From assembly GCA_903912525.1 (NCBI GenBank), contig CAIWHK010000031.1, positions 1-64,000 of the forward strand: a stretch of 64,000 nt of DNA. Direction: 5' to 3'. The notes below the pieces were generated by a model, which did no database searches, had not been told where the DNA came from, and was given only the letters and a program-made list of their open reading frames with translations. Numbering within the stretch: position 1 is the stretch's first letter; every line of letters begins with the position of its first letter. Shown here one piece after another: positions 8,884 to 58,142 of this stretch. Origin of the DNA: an uncultured bacterium. GTDB lineage: Bacteria > Krumholzibacteriota > Krumholzibacteriia > LZORAL124-64-63. A program made the position numbers and the translations under genes.

Positions 8884-9423
8884 ATGGCGAAGTTCAACAC
8901 GGTGCGATTCGGGGAGCTGGACTACCAGCAGAGCGACGTGATCCACCTGCCCGACGGCCTGGTCGGCATGCCGCAGCTGCGCAACTGGCTGCTGCTGGAA
9001 ATGGGTGACGACATCCCCATGAAGTGGCTGCAGTCCCTCGACCGCAGCGACTTCGGCGTGCCCGTGGCCCCGGCGTGGCTGTTCCACGACGAATACGAGT
9101 TCGACCTGCCGGCCGCCGCGGCCCGCCACCTGCAGACCACGGACGCCGCGAACCTGACGGTGATGGTCATCACGACCATCCACCCGGGCGGGGTCCTGGT
9201 CACGGGTAACCTGATGGCGCCGTTGGTGATCGACACCGAGACCCGTCGGGGACTGCAGCTGACGCTGGATGACCAGAAGTGGAGCCTGCGCCAGGAGATC
9301 GATTACTGCAAATTTGAGCTTGCCGTAACCGGTCAGACCCCGGAAAATGCCGGTCAGACGGTGCCGATGGCCTCGGGTGCCCTGCGGATGTCCGCCGGGG
9401 CTGCCGAGACAGTCGGGGCCTGA
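8884..9423 (+). CDS. fliW: Flagellar assembly factor FliW (CsrA antagonist)
   Basis: FliW binds CsrA, or flagellin when it accumulates, and so couples flagellin translation to secretion. The 179-aa protein has the FliW core: [23 protein letters not shown] at the N-terminus, [17 protein letters not shown] in the middle, and the [12 protein letters not shown] and NLMAPLVID blocks. A ~30-residue tail after VDYCKFEL-type sequence is not conserved. An AAGGAG ribosome-binding site precedes ATG 8884. csrA starts 52 bases downstream, the common partner arrangement. Confidence 0.96.
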
Positions 9424-9475
9424 GCCGGTCACGCCCTGTGGGGGCGTTTGGCTGGAAACAGGACAGGGAGGTCCC

Positions 9476-9718
9476 GTGCTCATCCTCAGTCGCAAGCGCA
9501 ACGAGAAGATCATGATCGGCGATGACATCGCCATCATGATCGTGGACATACGGGGCGATCAGGTCCAGATCGGGATCGACGCACCCCGGAGTATTCCCGT
9601 GCACCGGCACGAGATCTACGAAGAGATCAAGAGCACCACGCTCGGCGCCGCCGCCTCGGAAAAGGTCGACCTTGAAGCGATGCGCCGGAAGGCGCGGCGG
9701 CAGGAAGGCGACAAGTAG
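9476..9718 (+). CDS. csrA: Carbon storage regulator CsrA (translational repressor)
   Basis: RNA-binding repressor of 80 aa. The start is GTG 9476, with an AGGGAGG ribosome-binding site 4-5 bases upstream; the N-terminus [17 protein letters not shown] is the CsrA hallmark, and upstream in-frame codons run into fliW and are not coding. It includes the beta strands and the [22 protein letters not shown] block. The C-terminal tail (to ARRQEGDK) is longer than in E. coli CsrA, as is usual for FliW-controlled CsrA. Its likely local targets are the flagellin leaders on the opposite strand (14503-14520 and 15529-15548). Confidence 0.97.
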
Positions 9719-10734: not shown

Positions 10735-12051
10735 CTAGCGGATGCTGCCGAGGTAGTTGCCCTGCGCCTGCAGCTGCGACACCATCTGCTCCATGGCCGT
10801 GAAGCGCCGCTGGAGCGTCGACTGGTACGATTCGATGCTGCGCTCGTAGCGCGCGATGCTGTCGTCGACGTTGTCGATACGCTTGTTCAGGGACGTCGTC
10901 GAAGCCTTGAACACGCCCTGCGTGCTGCTGGTCAGGCTCGAGATCAGCGTGTCGAGCTGCGAGGCCTTGCCGACGTTGCCCTCGCGCTTGACGAAGAAGT
11001 CGCGCACCGAGCCGAACTGCGCGGCCAGAGCGTCCTTCAGCTTCGCCGCGTCGAACTCGACCTGCCGGTTCGAGCCGCGCTTGACGCCCATCTGCGCGAA
11101 CATCGTGATGTCGCCCAGGCCGGTTGCGAACGAGCTGCCGAACATGTTCTCGACCGAGCTTGCGACGGTGCGCAGGGCCGCGTTCTCGCGCAGGGTGCCG
11201 TCGGCGGCGGATTCCTTGGCGATGAACGAGAAAAGGTCATTGTACGCGTCGGTCAGGCCCTTGACCTTGTCGGAAATGCCGTCGGTGTCGCGCGCGACGG
11301 TGACGGTCAGCGTCTTGCCCGCGTCTGCCTGCAGAAGGCGCAGCGTGATCCCCGAGATGGCGTCGTCCGGCGTGTTGCTGTCGGCCGTGATCAGGATGTC
11401 GTCGATCGACAACGAGGCGTCCGCGGCGGTCGACTTGGTGGTCATCACCGGCGGCACGCCGCCCGTCAGCCCGCTCAGGTCCAGCGTGAAGGCGTTGGCG
11501 GTGCCGGCCTCGGCGCCGTTGACGACCAGGGTGTAGCCGCCGGTCGCCGCGCCCGAGTTCACGATGGCCGCGGACACGCCCTCGACGTTGTCGTTGATCG
11601 CGTTGGCCAGCCCCTGCAGCGTGTTGACGCCGGTCAGGTTCAGTTCCTTCGTCTTGCCGTCGATCGTGATGCTGACCCGCCCCGAGCCGATGTTGTCCAG
11701 CTTGCTGTCGTAGCCCTGGCTCTGGAGCTTCTGGGACGTGGCGAGCGAAATGACCTTGACGTTGTACTGCCCGGGGGAAGCCGAACCGCCGGCCGACACG
11801 GTGAGCGCGTCGGTATCGCTGCTCGTGGCCTTGGCGGTGGAGAATTCGGTGGAAGTGTCGAGCTTGCGGGCAGCCGTCTGCAGGGCCAGCAGCTTGGTCT
11901 TCAGCGTGGCCAGCGAGGTGATCTGGTTCTGGTAGGACTGCTTGTCCTTCTGGAGGCGGTAGACCGGGGCCCGCTTGAGCTCCACCAGCTGGGAGATGAT
12001 GGAACCCGTATCCAAACCTGTGGCCAGGCCGGAGAACGAAACTGACGACAT
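10735..12051 (-). CDS. fliD: Filament cap protein FliD (HAP2)
   Basis: Cap protein that folds exported flagellin at the filament tip (438 aa, typical). The N-terminus has SFSGLATGLDTGSIISQLVELKRAPV, the FliD hallmark. The C-terminal half has the FliD_C blocks (GLTDAYNDLFSFIAKESA, FGSVRDFFV) and a terminal coiled coil (RRFTAMEQMVSQLQAQGNYL). A Flagellin_IN-like segment sits near residues 140-185. It lies between flaG and fliS. No separate promoter was seen in the short gap before it, so it is probably transcribed with flagellin 1 and flaG. Confidence 0.96.
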   Translation of the reverse strand: MSSVSFSGLATGLDTGSIISQLVELKRAPVYRLQKDKQSYQNQITSLATLKTKLLALQTAARKLDTSTEFSTAKATSSDTDALTVSAGGSASPGQYNVKVISLATSQKLQSQGYDSKLDNIGSGRVSITIDGKTKELNLTGVNTLQGLANAINDNVEGVSAAIVNSGAATGGYTLVVNGAEAGTANAFTLDLSGLTGGVPPVMTTKSTAADASLSIDDILITADSNTPDDAISGITLRLLQADAGKTLTVTVARDTDGISDKVKGLTDAYNDLFSFIAKESAADGTLRENAALRTVASSVENMFGSSFATGLGDITMFAQMGVKRGSNRQVEFDAAKLKDALAAQFGSVRDFFVKREGNVGKASQLDTLISSLTSSTQGVFKASTTSLNKRIDNVDDSIARYERSIESYQSTLQRRFTAMEQMVSQLQAQGNYLGSIR

Positions 12052-12106
12052 GATCGGCTCCCCCGTGACAGACAGCTAGTCGATCCGTCGACCCGCCCGC
12101 GCTCCG

Positions 12107-12550: not shown

Positions 12551-13375
12551 CTAGCGCAGCAGAGACATCGCCAGGCTGGTGCTCGTGTTGGCCTGCGCCA
12601 GCATCGAGACGCCCGCCTGCTGGAGGATCTGGTAACTGGTCATGCGCGAGGTTTCCTTCGCGATGTCCACGTCACGGATGCGGCTGTTGGCGGCCGCCAG
12701 GTTCTCCGAGGTCATGTTGATGTTGCGGATCGAGCTCTCCAGGCGGTTCTGGATGGCGCCGAAGTCCGAACGCGCGCTGGTCACGGTCGAGATCGCGGTG
12801 TCGATCTGGCCCATGGCAACGCCGGCGCCCGAAGCACTGTCGATCGTCGCCGACAGGCCGAGGGTGGCGGTGTCGCGCGCGGTGCCGATGTTCACGTCCA
12901 CCTTGTCGGACGTGCCGGTGCCGATGCCCACCTGGATGGAGATCGTGCCGCCGTTGCCGTCGAGCAGCTTGACACCGTTGAACTCGGTCGCATCCGAGAT
13001 GCGGTCGATTTCACTCTTCAGCGCGCTGAATTCGTTGTTCAGGTAGCCGCGGTCGGTGTTCGACAGCGTCCCGTTCAACGACTGCTCGCTCAGTTCCTTC
13101 ATGCGCAGCAGGATCGAGGAGACCTCGTCCAGCGAGCCTTCACCCGTCTGCACGAGCGAGATGCCGTCGGCCGCGTTCCGGGACGCCTGGTCCAGGGCGC
13201 GGATGTCGGACTTCAAGCCCTCGCTGATGGCCAGGCCGGCCGCGTCGTCGCCGGCGCGGTTGATGCGCAGACCCGAGCTGAGCTTTTCCATCGACTTCTG
13301 GAACTCAGTCGAGCTGCGGGCCAGATGGCGCTGGGTGTTGAGTGAGCTGATGTTGGTGTTGATGCGGATGCCCAT
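12551..13375 (-). CDS. fliC: Flagellin 1
   Basis: Short flagellin (274 aa) made only of the D0/D1 core: N-terminal MGIRINTNISSLNTQRHLAR to about residue 140, and C-terminal LESSIRNINMTSENLAAANS to the end. No D2/D3 outer domain is present. The central ~40 residues differ most from the other three copies. The leader has a sigma28-like promoter (13507-13533), a weak AAGGAC hairpin (13401-13414) and the Shine-Dalgarno CAAGGAGGAA. flaG, fliD, fliS and the fliT-like gene follow on the same strand, so this copy probably heads the cap/chaperone operon. Confidence 0.97.
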   Translation of the reverse strand: MGIRINTNISSLNTQRHLARSSTEFQKSMEKLSSGLRINRAGDDAAGLAISEGLKSDIRALDQASRNAADGISLVQTGEGSLDEVSSILLRMKELSEQSLNGTLSNTDRGYLNNEFSALKSEIDRISDATEFNGVKLLDGNGGTISIQVGIGTGTSDKVDVNIGTARDTATLGLSATIDSASGAGVAMGQIDTAISTVTSARSDFGAIQNRLESSIRNINMTSENLAAANSRIRDVDIAKETSRMTSYQILQQAGVSMLAQANTSTSLAMSLLR

Positions 13376-13400
13376 GACATTCCTCCTTGAAATGCGTGCG

Positions 13401-13414
13401 GGACGTCCTTGCCC
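13401..13414 (-). promoter_or_regulatory. Weak candidate CsrA site in flagellin 1 leader
   Basis: On the mRNA strand the loop AAGGAC is closed by a 4-bp stem, GGGC/GUCC (one G-U pair), about 26 bases before the start codon. It is the same loop sequence as the stronger hairpins before flagellins 2 and 3. The Shine-Dalgarno AAGGAGGA supplies a second GGA. Alone this hairpin would be unconvincing. Confidence 0.4.
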
Positions 13415-13506
13415 TCAGCCGGGCTTGCAGCCCGTGGTCACTTGCCGTGTCCTGAGAGACTCACTTTCCCCGGGGTCGACCCTCTATTTGTCGTCCGGTA
13501 CGCAAA

Positions 13507-13533
13507 AGATCGACATCGTGCGCTTGAGCTTTA
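13507..13533 (-). promoter_or_regulatory. Sigma28 (FliA) promoter of flagellin 1
   Basis: On the minus strand: TAAA, a 15-base spacer, then GTCGATCT (consensus TAAA-N15-GCCGATAA; -35 perfect, -10 five of eight). It lies about 130 bases before the flagellin start, downstream of the terminator of flagellin 2. The same layout occurs before flagellin 3. Confidence 0.7.
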
Positions 13534-13646: not shown

Positions 13647-14474
13647 CTAGCCGCGGAGCAGATTCATCGCCAGACCCGTCGTGGTGTTGGCCTGGGCCAG
13701 CATCGCGACGCCCGCCTGCTGCAGGATCTGGTAGCTCGTCATCTGCGAGGTCTCCTTCGCCACGTCAACGTCGCGGATGCGGCTGTTGGCGGCGGCGAGG
13801 TTTTCCGAGGTCATGTTGATGTTGCGGATCGAGCTCTCCAGGCGGTTCTGGATGGCGCCGAAGTCCGAACGCGCGCTGGTCACGCTCGAGATCGCAGCGT
13901 CGATCTGGTCCATCGCCGTCGTCGCGCCGGAAGCGGCGTCGATCGTCGCCGACAGGCCCAGCTGCGCGGTGCTGCGGGCCAGGCCGAGGTCGATGTCCAC
14001 CTTGTCGGACGTGCCGGTGCCGATGCCAACCTGGATCGCAATCGTGCCGCCGGTGCCGTCGAGCAGCTTGACGCCGTTGAAGTCGGTCGAATCGGAGATG
14101 CGGTCGATTTCCGCCTTCAGCGCGCCGAACTCCGCGTTCAGGTAGCCGCGGTCGGTGTTCGACAGGGTGCCGTTCAGCGACTGCTCAGCCAGTTCCTTCA
14201 TGCGCAGCAGGATCGAGGAGACCTCGTCCAGCGAACCTTCACCCGTCTGCACGAGCGAGATGCCATCGGCAGCGTTCCGCGACGCCTGGTCCAGCGCACG
14301 GATGTCCGACTTCAAGCTCTCGCTGATGGCCAGGCCGGCCGCGTCGTCGCCGGCGCGGTTGATGCGCAGACCGGACGAGAGCTTTTCCATCGACTTGTTG
14401 AAGGAGATCGTGGAGTTGGCCAGGTGCCGGCGAGTGTTGATCGACGACACGTTCGTGTTGATGCGGATACCCAT
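13647..14474 (-). CDS. fliC: Flagellin 2
   Basis: Second short flagellin (275 aa), closest to flagellin 1: same N-terminal block (RINTNVSSINTRRHLANS), DFNGVKLLDG region and C-terminal LAAANSRIRDVDVAKETSQM. Variation is mostly in residues 145-200. It has a strong terminator of its own, but I found no sigma28 or sigma54 promoter in its 145-base upstream gap. It may be read from flagellin 3 through two hairpins without U-runs. Its leader has a perfect CsrA-type hairpin (14503-14520) and the CAAGGAGGAA Shine-Dalgarno. Confidence 0.97.
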   Translation of the reverse strand: MGIRINTNVSSINTRRHLANSTISFNKSMEKLSSGLRINRAGDDAAGLAISESLKSDIRALDQASRNAADGISLVQTGEGSLDEVSSILLRMKELAEQSLNGTLSNTDRGYLNAEFGALKAEIDRISDSTDFNGVKLLDGTGGTIAIQVGIGTGTSDKVDIDLGLARSTAQLGLSATIDAASGATTAMDQIDAAISSVTSARSDFGAIQNRLESSIRNINMTSENLAAANSRIRDVDVAKETSQMTSYQILQQAGVAMLAQANTTTGLAMNLLRG

Positions 14475-14502: not shown

Positions 14503-14520
14503 GCGGGCGTCCTTGCCCGC
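14503..14520 (-). promoter_or_regulatory. CsrA-binding hairpin in flagellin 2 leader
   Basis: On the mRNA strand: perfect 6-bp stem GCGGGC/GCCCGC closing the hexaloop AAGGAC, ending 29 bases before the start codon. ANGGAN in a hexaloop is the known high-affinity CsrA form. With the GGA of the Shine-Dalgarno at about 14481-14489, this gives the two-site layout typical of CsrA-repressed flagellin mRNAs. Confidence 0.75.
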
Positions 14521-14529
14521 TTCTTCTCA

Positions 14530-14557
14530 CCGGCCCGGCAACAGATTGCCGGACCGG
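14530..14557 (-). other. RNA hairpin between flagellins 3 and 2
   Basis: 12-bp stem with a 4-base loop. One position is C/A on the plus strand but G-U on the minus strand, so it is a full stem only in the minus-strand transcript. No U-run follows. With the GC hairpin at 14589-14608 it lies between the flagellin 3 stop and the flagellin 2 start, and may attenuate or stabilise a joint mRNA. Confidence 0.5.
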
Positions 14558-14588
14558 CTTCCCATCAGCTGCCCCGCTAAGGCTGGCC

Positions 14589-14608
14589 GGCGGCGCCGGG
14601 GCGCCGCC
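14589..14608 (-). other. GC-rich hairpin just after flagellin 3
   Basis: 8-bp perfect stem, GGCGGCGC/GCGCCGCC, with a 4-base loop, 11 bases past the flagellin 3 stop. There is no U-run, so factor-independent termination is doubtful. Confidence 0.45.
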
Positions 14609-14619
14609 CGCTACCGCCG

Positions 14620-15447
14620 CTAGCCGCGCAGCAGATTCATCGCCAGGCCCGTCGTGGTGTTGGCCTGCGCCAACATGTCCACGCCGGCCTGCTGCAGGAT
14701 CTGGTACGACGTCATGTTCGACGTCTCCTGGGCCACATCCACGTCGCGGATGCGACTGTTGGCGGCCGCCAGATTCTCAGAGGTCATGTTGATGTTGCGG
14801 ATGGAGCTCTCCAGGCGGTTCTGGATGGCGCCGAAACCGCCGCGCGCGCTGACGACCTGCGACACCGCGGCGTCGACCTGGTCCATCGCCACGGCGGCGT
14901 TGCTGTACGTGTCGACGCTCGAGGACAGGCCCATGTGCGCCGTGTCGAGGTCCGCACTGAGGTCGATGGCCACGCTGTCGGCGGCCGTGGTGCCGATACC
15001 CACCTGGATGCCGACCGTCCCGCCCTGGCCGTCGAGCAGCTTGACGTTGTTGAAGTCGACGCTGTCGCTGATGCGATCGATTTCGCTCCGGAGCGCCGCG
15101 AATTCCGAATTGAGGTAGCCGCGGTCGGTGTTCGACAGCGTGCCGTTCAGCGACTGCTCGGCCAGTTCCTTCATGCGCAGCAGGATGTTGCTGACTTCGT
15201 CGAGCGAGCCTTCCGCCGTCTGGATCAGCGAGATGCCGTCGGCAGCGTTGCGCGCAGCCTGGTCGAGGGCGCGGATGTCCGACTTGAGGGATTCGCTGAT
15301 GGCGAGGCCGGCAGCGTCATCACCGGCGCGGTTGATCCGCAGGCCGGAACTGAGCTTTTCCATCGACTTGTTGAAAGCGGTGGTGGAGCCCTGGAGGTGA
15401 CGGCGCGTATTGATCGACGAAACGTTGGTATTGATGCGGATGCCCAT
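14620..15447 (-). CDS. fliC: Flagellin 3
   Basis: Third short flagellin (275 aa). N-terminus MGIRINTNVSSINTRRHLQGS and the C-terminal core match flagellins 1 and 2; the middle (residues 145-200, VDTYSNAAVAMDQVDAAVSQ) is more divergent. It is only D0/D1, so the filament is probably smooth and thin. It has its own sigma28-like promoter (15575-15601) and a 7-bp CsrA-type hairpin (15529-15548) near the predicted 5' end. The Shine-Dalgarno is again CAAGGAGGAA. Confidence 0.97.
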   Translation of the reverse strand: MGIRINTNVSSINTRRHLQGSTTAFNKSMEKLSSGLRINRAGDDAAGLAISESLKSDIRALDQAARNAADGISLIQTAEGSLDEVSNILLRMKELAEQSLNGTLSNTDRGYLNSEFAALRSEIDRISDSVDFNNVKLLDGQGGTVGIQVGIGTTAADSVAIDLSADLDTAHMGLSSSVDTYSNAAVAMDQVDAAVSQVVSARGGFGAIQNRLESSIRNINMTSENLAAANSRIRDVDVAQETSNMTSYQILQQAGVDMLAQANTTTGLAMNLLRG

Positions 15448-15528
15448 GGTTTTCCTCCTTGAAAACGCCGGGTGATTTTGCCGTACGCCCCGCTCGGGGC
15501 CCGGATGTCCGTCCCGCTCCGGCTCCGT

Positions 15529-15548
15529 GCAGCGAGTCCTTTCGCTGC
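15529..15548 (-). promoter_or_regulatory. CsrA-binding hairpin in flagellin 3 leader
   Basis: Perfect 7-bp stem GCAGCGA/TCGCTGC closing the hexaloop AAGGAC on the mRNA strand. It lies about 20 bases after the predicted transcription start and 82 bases before the ATG. The stem differs completely in sequence from the one before flagellin 2 while the loop is identical, which is what selection for CsrA binding would produce. Confidence 0.75.
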
Positions 15549-15574: not shown

Positions 15575-15601
15575 GTATCGTCGGTGGGGTGGGGGGCTTT
15601 A
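15575..15601 (-). promoter_or_regulatory. Sigma28 (FliA) promoter of flagellin 3
   Basis: On the minus strand: TAAA, exactly 15 bases, then GACGATAC (six of eight against GCCGATAA). It lies 128 bases before the start codon, between the terminator of flagellin 4 and the CsrA hairpin. Confidence 0.75.
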
Positions 15602-15694: not shown

Positions 15695-16540
15695 CTAGCC
15701 CTTCAGCAGGTTCAGCGCCAGCTGCGAGGTCATGTTGGCCTGCGCCAGGATGGACACGCCGGCCTGCTGCAGGATCTGCAGCGAGGTCATCGTCGACGTC
15801 TCGAGCGCCACGTCGACGTCGCGGATGCGGCTGTTGGCGGCCGCGAGATTTTCCGCCGTCATGCCGATGTTGCGGATCGACGTCTCGAACCGGTTCTGCG
15901 CCGCGCCGAAGTTGGCGCGCATGGAACTGACGACGCCCGTCGCCTCGGTGATCTTGCCGATCGCCGTGCGCGCCGCGTTGCCGTTCGTGCCGGTGATGTT
16001 GAAGATGCCGGCCGTCAGGTCGAGGGCGGAAGAGCTCATCGCCTGCGTCAAGTCGATCGACACTGCGCTGGTCGTCGCGTCGGTGCCGATGCCGACCTGC
16101 ACGCGCAGCGTCAGCGCCGTGCCGTCGAGCAGCTTGATGCCGTTGAACTCGGCCGTCATGCTGATACGGTCGACTTCGTCGAGCAGTTCCTGGAACTCGT
16201 TGTTCAGGTACACGCGCTCGTCCGAACCAAGCGTTTCCGTCGAGGCCTGTTCGGCCAGTTCCCGCAGGCGCAGCAGGATGCTGTTGACCTCATCCAGCGA
16301 ACCTTCAGCCGTCTGCACCAGCGAGACGCCGTCGGCAGCGTTGCGGGAGGCCTGCTGCAGCGCGCGGATGTCGGACTTCAGGCTCTCGCTGATAGCCAGG
16401 CCGGCGGCGTCATCGCCCGAACGGTTGATGCGCAGGCCCGAGCTCAGGCGCTCCATCGACTTCGAGAAGCGGGTGGTCGTGTCGTACAGGTGACGCTGTG
16501 CGTTCAGCGACGCGATGTTAGTATTGACTCTGAGTCCCAT
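15695..16540 (-). CDS. fliC: Flagellin 4 (divergent copy)
   Basis: Fourth flagellin (281 aa) and the most different: MGLRVNTNIASLNAQRHLYD start, SMERLSSGLRINRSGDD, LGSDERVYLNNEFQELLDE, and C-terminal RFETSIRNIGMTAENLAAAN. It also lacks outer domains. Its leader differs from the others: no AAGGAC hairpin, and Shine-Dalgarno ACGGAGGAA. Only a -10-like GCTGATAA (16624-16631, minus) was seen, without a matching -35. It may be a minor or differently timed filament component, for example at the base or tip. It is divergent from the acetyltransferase gene at 16731. Confidence 0.96.
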   Translation of the reverse strand: MGLRVNTNIASLNAQRHLYDTTTRFSKSMERLSSGLRINRSGDDAAGLAISESLKSDIRALQQASRNAADGVSLVQTAEGSLDEVNSILLRLRELAEQASTETLGSDERVYLNNEFQELLDEVDRISMTAEFNGIKLLDGTALTLRVQVGIGTDATTSAVSIDLTQAMSSSALDLTAGIFNITGTNGNAARTAIGKITEATGVVSSMRANFGAAQNRFETSIRNIGMTAENLAAANSRIRDVDVALETSTMTSLQILQQAGVSILAQANMTSQLALNLLKG

Positions 16541-56246: not shown

Positions 56247-58142
56247 TCAGCCGCGGGGCGGCCGGTAGGCCACGATCTTCTGCCCGATATGGATCATGTT
56301 GCTGCGCGGGATCCGGTTGACCTGCCGCAGGTGCGACACCGTCACGCCGAGCTTCTTGGCGATGGCGCCGACCGTGTCGCCCTTGCGCACGTCGTAGCTG
56401 ACGCGCTCCCAGCCGGAGGGAGGCTCGTAGCGCGCCGTGGCCTTGCCGGATTTCGCCGCGGCAGCCTTGCCGGACTTGCCCTTGGTCGCCTTGGCGGAGT
56501 TCGACTTGCCGGAAGCAGCCGCCGATTCCAGGCGCTGGCGCGCCTTGTCGCTCAGTTCGCCCGGCATCGGCACGAGCAGTTCATCGCCGGGGTGGATCAT
56601 GTACGGCGCGTTCAGCTTGTTGAGCCGTGCGATGTCGCCCACCGTGGTGCCGTAGTTCGCGGCGATGCGCCCGAGCGTCTCGCCGCGCGCAACATGGTGG
56701 CGGCTCCAGGTCAATCGTTTCTCGGCCGGCACCCTGGCGAGCGCCGCCTGCGTCGCGGCGCCGAGGCCGTCGGGGACCTTTACTTCGTATGCTTTGTGGT
56801 CCGGCGACGTCATCCCGCGAACAAGGCTCGGATTGAGCAGCTTGATCTCGGACACGTCGACGTTCGCGCACTTGGCAATGACCTCGAGATCGAACGCATC
56901 TTCGACCTTCAGCACATCGTAATGCAGCGGGCGCGCCGCGGGTACCGAGAAGCCGTAGCGCTCGGGGTCCTCGCCGATGCGCGCGGCGGCGATGAACTTC
57001 GGGATGTGCGCGATCGTCTGGCTTGGCAGGCGCAGATTCCAGAAGTCATTGTGGCCGGTCTGCCCGATCACGCGCTCGACGCGGCCTTCGCCGGTGTTGT
57101 ACGCCGCGAGCACGAGCGCCCAGTCGTTGAACTGCGCATACAGCCGACGGATGTACTTGCAGGCCGCGCGCGTCGACATCTCCATGTCGCGCCGCTCGTC
57201 GATCCACCAGTCGCTGCGCAACCCGTGCGCGCGGCCGGTCGGCGCCATGAACTGCCACGGACCGACCGCGCCGACGTTCGACACGGCGCGCGAACTGAGC
57301 CCGCTCTCGATCATCGCCAGGTAGATCAGTTCGCGCGGCAGCCCGTTCTCGTCGAGGATCGCCGTGATCATCGAATCGACCTGGGCGCGGCGTTCAAGCC
57401 AGACCTGGAAGTGGTCGCGCCCGCGGCCCGAGAAGTACGTGACCCAGCGGCTGACTTCCTGGTTGTCCACCTTGAGCAGGTCGACGGTGATCGGGGAGAG
57501 CTGCGCGCCGGTGGCCGGCACCAGGGAATCGGGGAAGGCGCCCTGCGCCAACCGGGCGTAACCGTCAGCGAGCAGCGAATCGGCCTGCGATTCGTCGCCG
57601 GCGAAAGCGTACTGCTCGGTCAGCAAGGCGCCCAGCAGGTCGGCGCGACGCTGCAAGCTGAGCTGGTGCTCGATGTAAAGGGAGTCGGCGCCGGAAGGAG
57701 CCGGCATCCCGGCCTGGTCCTCGAGGACGAAGACATGGTCCTGGGCCTCGTCGACCCGCCCGTCGGCGGCCAGCGACAGGGCCGTGCGGCTGAGTTTCTC
57801 AAGCGCCTCCAGCGATGCGCGCCCCTCGTCGTCGACCGCCAGTTCGATGGCATCGTCGGCTGTCAGGTCCAGGGCGCCGTCCGCTTCGGCGTCGGTCGAA
57901 TCCTCGCGCACATCGCGTCCGGCGAATTCGTTCTCGTCACCGAAGACGTCTTCAATCGACGTCCGGGCATGCGGTTGCGGGGGACGGGGGGTCGATCGGA
58001 CCGCGGTTTCATGGCTCGAGGCGCAACCGCCGACAAGGGCCGCCAGGGCCAGGAGCGCCACCAGGGAAAGCGCGCGAAGTCGGGCGCCAACGCCCGCAGT
58101 ATTGGTTAACTTGTTGCCGCCGTGCAACTTCTGCCATATCAT
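56247..58142 (-). CDS. mltD: Lipoprotein lytic transglycosylase, MltD-like, with LysM repeats
   Basis: 631 aa. Lipobox signal peptide with LVGGC (Cys 40). A long acidic, TPR-like N-terminal part (about 60-230) is followed by the SLT domain with catalytic Glu in LIYLAMIESGLSSRAVSNVGAVGPWQFM and AAYNTGEGR. Two clear LysM domains follow (RHHVARGETLGRIAANYGTTVGDIARLN; YDVRKGDTVGAIAKKLGVTVSHLRQVNRI), plus one degenerate LysM before them, and a Lys/Ala/Ser linker between. It cleaves peptidoglycan from the outer-membrane side. ATG 58142 is preferred over TTG 58151. It is divergent from the diguanylate cyclase gene. Confidence 0.92.
   Translation of the reverse strand: MIWQKLHGGNKLTNTAGVGARLRALSLVALLALAALVGGCASSHETAVRSTPRPPQPHARTSIEDVFGDENEFAGRDVREDSTDAEADGALDLTADDAIELAVDDEGRASLEALEKLSRTALSLAADGRVDEAQDHVFVLEDQAGMPAPSGADSLYIEHQLSLQRRADLLGALLTEQYAFAGDESQADSLLADGYARLAQGAFPDSLVPATGAQLSPITVDLLKVDNQEVSRWVTYFSGRGRDHFQVWLERRAQVDSMITAILDENGLPRELIYLAMIESGLSSRAVSNVGAVGPWQFMAPTGRAHGLRSDWWIDERRDMEMSTRAACKYIRRLYAQFNDWALVLAAYNTGEGRVERVIGQTGHNDFWNLRLPSQTIAHIPKFIAAARIGEDPERYGFSVPAARPLHYDVLKVEDAFDLEVIAKCANVDVSEIKLLNPSLVRGMTSPDHKAYEVKVPDGLGAATQAALARVPAEKRLTWSRHHVARGETLGRIAANYGTTVGDIARLNKLNAPYMIHPGDELLVPMPGELSDKARQRLESAAASGKSNSAKATKGKSGKAAAAKSGKATARYEPPSGWERVSYDVRKGDTVGAIAKKLGVTVSHLRQVNRIPRSNMIHIGQKIVAYRPPRG

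Follow-up and report, generated by a model that had tools for sequence, protein, structure and literature searches.

Hairpins with ANGGAN hexaloops in the flagellin leaders of an uncultured Krumholzibacteriota bacterium are predicted CsrA operators

Introduction

Relief of CsrA repression by FliW is known in Bacillus and Campylobacter (PMC7652899, PMC6529632, PMC4894983). NMR analysis of the CsrA homologue RsmE placed the ANGGAN motif exactly in a hexaloop (PMC7652899), and the high-affinity ligands of RsmE and CsrA (hcnA and the CsrB/RsmZ repeats) share with the elements described here a short-stemmed, six-base ANGGAN loop. They differ in that our candidates reside in flagellin leaders and have stems of 6-7 bp in flagellins 2 and 3, longer than those of most SELEX ligands, which have four or fewer contiguous pairs.

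The leader of Campylobacter jejuni flaA comprises two adjacent ANGGA hexaloop hairpins, of which the second covers the ribosome-binding site; related species show compensatory changes, FliW is the protein antagonist and transcription starts from a sigma-28 promoter (PMC4894983). The Krumholzibacteriota leaders have the same anatomy and thus belong to an already known kind. The two systems differ in the spacing of the sites (21 nt in flaA and 81 nt in flagellin 3 here), in phylum, in the presence here of several flagellin paralogues with leader types of their own, and in the hairpin sites that csrA itself and fliD carry. The flaA sites were shown to bind CsrA, whereas the Krumholzibacteriota sites are predicted from sequence.

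Bacillus subtilis hag likewise has two CsrA sites in its leader, one of them on the Shine-Dalgarno sequence (PMC7652899, PMC6529632), and the Hag-FliW-CsrA partner switch shares with our locus the FliW antagonist and a CsrA with an extended, FliW-binding C-terminus. B. subtilis has one flagellin gene, and FliW antagonism is proven there and predicted in Krumholzibacteriota. Treponema denticola resembles our locus in having several flagellins with predicted CsrA sites (flaB1 and flaB2) and fliW-csrA in a flagellar cluster; where that report deals with these genes, it mentions sites near the Shine-Dalgarno sequence only and describes no covarying hairpin (PMC9481697).

A search of the open-licence literature found no study of CsrA in Krumholzibacteriota. 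Our analysis extends the FliW-CsrA flagellin switch to an uncultured phylum by base-pair covariation, beyond motif matching. What is predicted to be new is the occurrence in this phylum, together with leader types specific to each paralogue, a wider spacing of the sites, csrA and fliD hairpins conserved family-wide, and an amidase.

Genomic context of the flagellin leaders

The window, by which we mean the whole stretch of 64,000 nucleotides that was analysed, comes from contig C31. The genome measures 4.29 Mb at 97.75% completeness, and Candidatus Krumholzibacteriota MAGs are its relatives. In the flagellar cluster of the window, the minus strand encodes flaG, fliD and four flagellins and the plus strand flgK, flgL, fliW and csrA (Table 1); a fifth flagellin of the same genome is found on another contig, C25. 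The initial annotation had located fliW and csrA 4-6 kb from the flagellins and, indeed, both genes were identified by Pfam at a distance of 3.7-6.7 kb.

Table 1. Features of the flagellin locus, in window positions
Feature	Positions	Strand	Description
fliW, predicted protein antagonist of CsrA	8884..9423	+	Pfam FliW, 95 bits; matches solved FliW 5dmb
csrA Shine-Dalgarno hairpin, predicted autoregulation site	9461..9474	+	GGAC-AGGGAG-GUCC, one base 5' of GTG
csrA, RNA-binding repressor	9476..9718	+	Pfam CsrA; GTG start; L4, R44, extended C-terminus
fliD (filament cap), predicted CsrA target	10735..12051	-	Pfam FliD_N + FliD_C
fliD leader hairpin, predicted CsrA site	12078..12093	-	GGUCG-ACGGAU-CGACU (GUCG/CGAC core)
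Flagellin 1	12551..13375	-	Pfam Flagellin_N + Flagellin_C
Flagellin 1 Shine-Dalgarno stem	13378..13394	-	CAUUUC-AAGGA-GGAAUG, 6 bp, five-base loop
Flagellin 1 AAGGAC element	13401..13414	-	GGGC-AAGGAC-GUCC, 4 bp including one G-U; motif conserved, stem without covariation support
Flagellin 1 conserved two-tier structure	13414..13456	-	RNAalifold, 12 relatives
Sigma-28-type promoter, flagellin 1	13509..13533	-	TAAAG-N16-CGAT
Flagellin 2	13647..14474	-	Pfam
Flagellin 2 upstream hairpin, predicted CsrA site	14503..14520	-	GCGGGC-AAGGAC-GCCCGC, 6 bp, ANGGAN hexaloop
Flagellin 3	14620..15447	-	Pfam
Flagellin 3 Shine-Dalgarno hairpin	15449..15466	-	GUUUUC-AAGGAG-GAAAAC, 6 bp, ANGGAN hexaloop with ribosome-binding site
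Flagellin 3 upstream hairpin, predicted CsrA site	15529..15548	-	GCAGCGA-AAGGAC-TCGCTGC, 7 bp, ANGGAN hexaloop
Sigma-28-type promoter, flagellin 3	15575..15601	-	TAAAG-N16-CGATAC; same spacing upstream of many relatives
Flagellin 4	15695..16540	-	Pfam; leader without ANGGAN hairpin

The csrA gene is single-copy in the source genome; fliW is immediately upstream of it in the window and adjoins it in nearly all relatives. The encoded protein retains Leu4 and Arg44, the RNA-contact residues of CsrA (PMC7652899), and its residues 2-79 align with the CsrA chain of the FliW-CsrA complex 5dmb, C-terminal extension included. Among genomes from beyond the window's family, 13 contain both csrA and flagellin genes, two contain csrA alone, none contains flagellin without csrA, and 27 lack both. 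The csrA leaders of the two genomes with no detectable flagellin (G023 and G027) do not contain an ANGGAN hairpin.

Sigma-28-type promoters precede flagellins 1 and 3, which positions the elements of both genes within the transcribed leader. No sigma-28-type promoter was found for flagellin 2, the transcription of which probably comes from upstream and may be read-through from flagellin 3.

Hairpins in the flagellin 2 and flagellin 3 leaders

The AAGGAC hairpins described in the initial annotation before flagellin 2 (6 bp) and flagellin 3 (7 bp) are exact on the minus strand. The proposal that the Shine-Dalgarno sequence supplies a second GGA site also holds, as CAAGGAGGAA is found in the leaders of flagellins 1, 2 and 3. 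In the flagellin 2 leader, this second GGA is part of an unstructured AAGGAG, 24 nt away from the GGA of the upstream hairpin. The flagellin 3 leader comprises two ANGGAN hexaloop hairpins, one of which, overlooked at first, is formed around the Shine-Dalgarno sequence; the upstream hairpin is located ~80 nt 5' of it, with about 81 nt from GGA to GGA.

The minimum-energy structures of single-sequence folds include the flagellin 2 and flagellin 3 hairpins and exclude that of flagellin 1. Folding energies were not lower than those of shuffled sequences (z between -0.6 and +0.3), and energy alone is therefore no evidence. Scanning the window with Rfam returned no family at the gathering score and no known Csr-type sRNA.

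We found 302 ANGGAN hexamers on the two strands of the 64 kb, only three of which are closed into a hexaloop by at least six Watson-Crick pairs, each in a flagellin leader. Easing the cut-off to four Watson-Crick pairs adds only the csrA Shine-Dalgarno hairpin, the fliD leader hairpin and one unrelated site (57690-57705). These counts bear on the possibility that the hairpins arose by chance, as palindromes enclosing Shine-Dalgarno-like, purine-rich motifs of a G+C-rich genome: AAGGAG is itself a Shine-Dalgarno sequence and hexaloops of at least six pairs number ~105 per strand per 64 kb, but the confinement of the enclosed ANGGAN sites to flagellin leaders, together with the compensatory changes across genera described below, renders this origin extremely improbable.

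We then extended the count to 90 leaders, with no selection on structure and with the Shine-Dalgarno sequence left out. At least five Watson-Crick pairs close 22 of the 108 ANGGAN hexamers (20%), as compared with 30 of the 8172 other hexamers (0.37%), a 55-fold higher frequency of stem closure for ANGGAN in these flagellin leaders. Relatives contributed ~1.0 Mb of sequence over both strands, in which 60 such ANGGAN hairpins occur: 38 belong to the listed flagellin leaders and, of the other 22, several correspond to flagellin or fliD leaders overlooked at first pass.

The hairpins could alternatively serve in mRNA processing or stability, as standby structures or as Shine-Dalgarno RNA thermometers, independently of CsrA. 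Stable hairpins are frequent near the starts of abundant mRNAs, a Shine-Dalgarno hairpin could by itself be a generic occlusion device, and strong hairpins devoid of GGA also occur between the flagellin genes of the window. Neither stability nor occlusion, however, requires A-N-GGA-N in a loop of exactly six bases, and the other hexamers of the same leaders are enclosed 55-fold less often. Since the upstream site is also 80 nt from the start codon and csrA and fliD are preceded by the same loop, we regard such CsrA-independent roles as highly unlikely.

Conservation and covariation in relatives

Leaders were gathered from 38 Krumholzibacteriia genomes of the same family and, within the class, from further families; these sequences are related and the counts that follow are not independent events. 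Most flagellin-3-type relatives have a GGA in an ANGGAN hexaloop hairpin. We aligned 17 leaders of the flagellin-3 type on sequence alone, and RNAalifold recovered two helices only, corresponding to the upstream hairpin and to the Shine-Dalgarno hairpin. Both sides have changed in six of the seven pairs of the upstream helix. Over the two helices, 24 cells are changed on both sides, compared with 8.2 +/- 2.9 after shuffling and 4-12 with slid partners, and the covariation score of these leaders is 0.340 (0.149 +/- 0.022 shuffled). The Shine-Dalgarno helix is nearly invariant in the 17-leader set and hence uninformative by covariation there; paralogous leaders have other stems at this position (CUAUUC/GAAUAG, AUAUUC/GAAUAU, AUUUUC/GAAAAU). 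The flagellin-2-type hairpin is kept in relatives with differing stems and loops, and its alignment (A4) has just four consensus pairs, two of which show compensatory change. Related genomes thus keep the loop and the stems of flagellins 2 and 3, the loss of which in relatives would have spoken against the initial annotation. As matched base changes maintain the hairpins, the Krumholzibacteriota elements very probably represent the known CsrA-FliW system of flagellin control.

The loops observed in relatives are AAGGAC, AAGGAU, AAGGAA, AAGGAG, AUGGAC, AUGGAU, AGGGAA and ACGGAC. The AAGGAC loop noted at the outset is not a fixed sequence: variation is confined to the two N positions, where CsrA tolerates it, so the A and the GGA are fixed and both N are free. 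The leaders provide a clean natural test of the changes that the loop tolerates. This pattern also addresses the possibility that the inverted repeats are DNA operators of a transcription factor. Perfect inverted repeats before co-regulated genes do look like dimer-binding sites, but here the arms vary and compensate around a fixed, non-palindromic AnGGAn center, the opposite of what a DNA operator would present, and the csrA and flagellin 3 sites include the Shine-Dalgarno sequence. We consider that DNA operators have a very remote chance of accounting for the repeats.

The flagellin 1 and flagellin 4 leaders

Flagellin 1 had been assigned the same loop on a weak 4-bp stem. The sequence is present, but the stem shows covariation no higher than chance: as a conserved helix, it scores 0.068 (0.045 shuffled), and 126 of 500 shuffles score as high. 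A different structure is conserved in its place. The outer tier of this structure pairs CUCAG (13452-13456) with CUGAG (13414-13418), and its inner tier is the hairpin CGGGC...GCCCG (13420-13434), which is of CCGG type and the last two pairs of which covary. The Shine-Dalgarno stem with its five-base loop is likewise conserved. When extended on its 3' side (GGC), the outer helix shares bases with the 4-bp stem, and the two structures therefore compete. The AAGGA motif is present in most of the 12 flagellin-1-type leaders and is gone in two relatives. Flagellin 1 probably binds CsrA via single-stranded AAGGA motifs, with the conserved longer-range helix alongside, and not via the 4-bp hairpin. 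In relatives, the two-tier helix is flanked by AAAGGAG on its 5' side and by CAAGGA(A/C) on its 3' side; the 5' motif is lost in the window. The two-tier helix may bring two GGA sites together.

Flagellin 4 forms a separate clade among the flagellins. It had been described as lacking the element, and this absence extends to its clade, as 20 of 21 leaders have no ANGGAN hairpin of four or more Watson-Crick pairs. Among the other cluster flagellins, 34 of 63 leaders have at least one such hexaloop and the rest have none (Fisher p = 6e-5, a nominal value since the leader sequences are related). Flagellin 4 leaders retain an ANGGA Shine-Dalgarno sequence (CACGGAGGA, CAUGGAGGA, CAGGGAGGA), so that weak, single-site CsrA binding is possible. 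The flagellin 4 leaders of many relatives have GGGCAAGCTGCAA in common ~90 nt before the start, where in some relatives it occupies the place of the sigma-28 -10 element; a sigma-54 reading of this sequence was rejected by eye for its wrong GG-GC spacing.

Leader type varies with the flagellin paralogue: some leaders have two hexaloop hairpins, some have one upstream hairpin only, some have AAGGA motifs on either side of a helix, and some have none of these. We predict from these types that the paralogous flagellins of one cell are repressed to differing degrees.

Hairpins before csrA, fliD and a fifth flagellin

The csrA leaders have GGACANGGAGGUCC on the Shine-Dalgarno sequence in nearly the whole family, within surrounding sequence that is unconserved; all four bases occur at loop position 2, and the stem is CGAC/GUCG in another family of the class. 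The fliD leaders of many genera have GUCGANGGANCGAC at the same position, with the loops ACGGAU, AAGGAU, ACGGAA and AAGGAA. The leader of the fifth flagellin contains UGGGG-AAGGAU-CCCCA directly after a sigma-28-type -10 element. No conserved ANGGAN hairpin was found when the FliS, FliW and FlgL leaders were scanned.

Proposed mechanism

The CsrA-operator reading put forward for the flagellin leaders stands for flagellins 2 and 3, the hairpins of which are conserved and covary, and does not extend to the 4-bp hairpin of flagellin 1, given a stem at chance level and another conserved structure. It is further backed by the csrA and fliD leaders, by the co-occurrence of csrA with flagellins and by the features of the CsrA protein. 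From the computed motifs, structures, conservation, covariation, gene content and promoters, we infer binding by CsrA, repression and antagonism by FliW. Taken as a whole, we hold with high confidence that the best explanation is one in which the hairpins of the flagellin 5' leaders are CsrA operators, FliW acts as antagonist, csrA is autoregulated, and fliD and the fifth flagellin are additional targets.

By analogy with hag and flaA, CsrA bound to the upstream hairpin and to the Shine-Dalgarno GGA of flagellins 2 and 3 would exclude the ribosome. FliW would remove CsrA, unless FliW is itself held by unsecreted flagellin; export of flagellin would free FliW, and flagellin translation would in this way track secretion. 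CsrA would also repress its own translation via the hairpin containing the csrA Shine-Dalgarno sequence and would act on fliD and the fifth flagellin, and flagellin 4 would stand outside the hairpin class. One Escherichia coli CsrA dimer bridges sites 10-63 nt apart. The spacing in flagellin 2 is close to the optimum for bridging by one dimer, and that in flagellin 3 is beyond the range, so that we assume either two dimers or a leader compacted by its hairpins.

CsrA could also bind the hairpins mainly to be titrated, the flagellin mRNAs acting as a sponge more than being repressed themselves. The C. jejuni flaA leader draws CsrA off weaker targets (PMC4894983), and several abundant flagellin mRNAs would present many sites against the single sites of fliD and the amidase described below. 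The position of the Shine-Dalgarno hairpin nevertheless suits direct repression. We judge titration as the main role to be rather unlikely, with the two activities being compatible.

Genome-wide search for further predicted targets

Our genome-wide view is that of a covariance model trained on the hairpins. Flagellin 3 ranks second and flagellin 2 third in the genome, with the window's flagellin hairpins being part of the training set. The search is weakly specific, and several matches (for example L225 and L227) were discarded because they are inside coding sequence.

The fourth match is outside the window, in the leader of a peptidoglycan amidase with AMIN, Amidase_3 and LysM domains. This predicted CsrA target, GCCGGC-AAGGAC-GCCGGC (contig C32, 236137-236160, minus strand), is upstream of a GAAGGAG Shine-Dalgarno sequence. 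Close relatives keep its stem, and their loops (AAGGAC, AUGGAC, AGGGAC, AGGGAG) vary at the N positions alone; the amidase leaders of other genera have different stems. The predicted targets of CsrA thereby come to include its own gene, fliD and a cell-wall amidase. We tentatively propose, as a possibility somewhat short of even, that CsrA of Krumholzibacteriia is a dedicated motility regulator with paralogue-specific operators that set in what proportion and in what order flagellins enter the filament, and that the conserved hairpin ties the amidase to the same switch.

The best match of the covariance model (contig C32, 337504-337527, minus strand) has a long stem, modelled at 9 bp and extendable, and an AAGGAU loop, and is located 38 nt past the stop codon of a gene for a protein with a lamin-tail domain. 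The stem is kept in four species, with the loops AAGGAU, AAGGAA, AAGGAA and AUGGAG, and the hairpin may act as a terminator or as a CsrA sponge in the 3'UTR.

Flagellin leaders from other families of the class (L250, L256, L260 and L261) contain GACANGGANGUC, as in family f3, or the similar AAUACAGGGAUGUAUU ~50 nt before the start, and GACANGGANGUC resembles the E. coli CsrA SELEX consensus RUACARGGAUGU.
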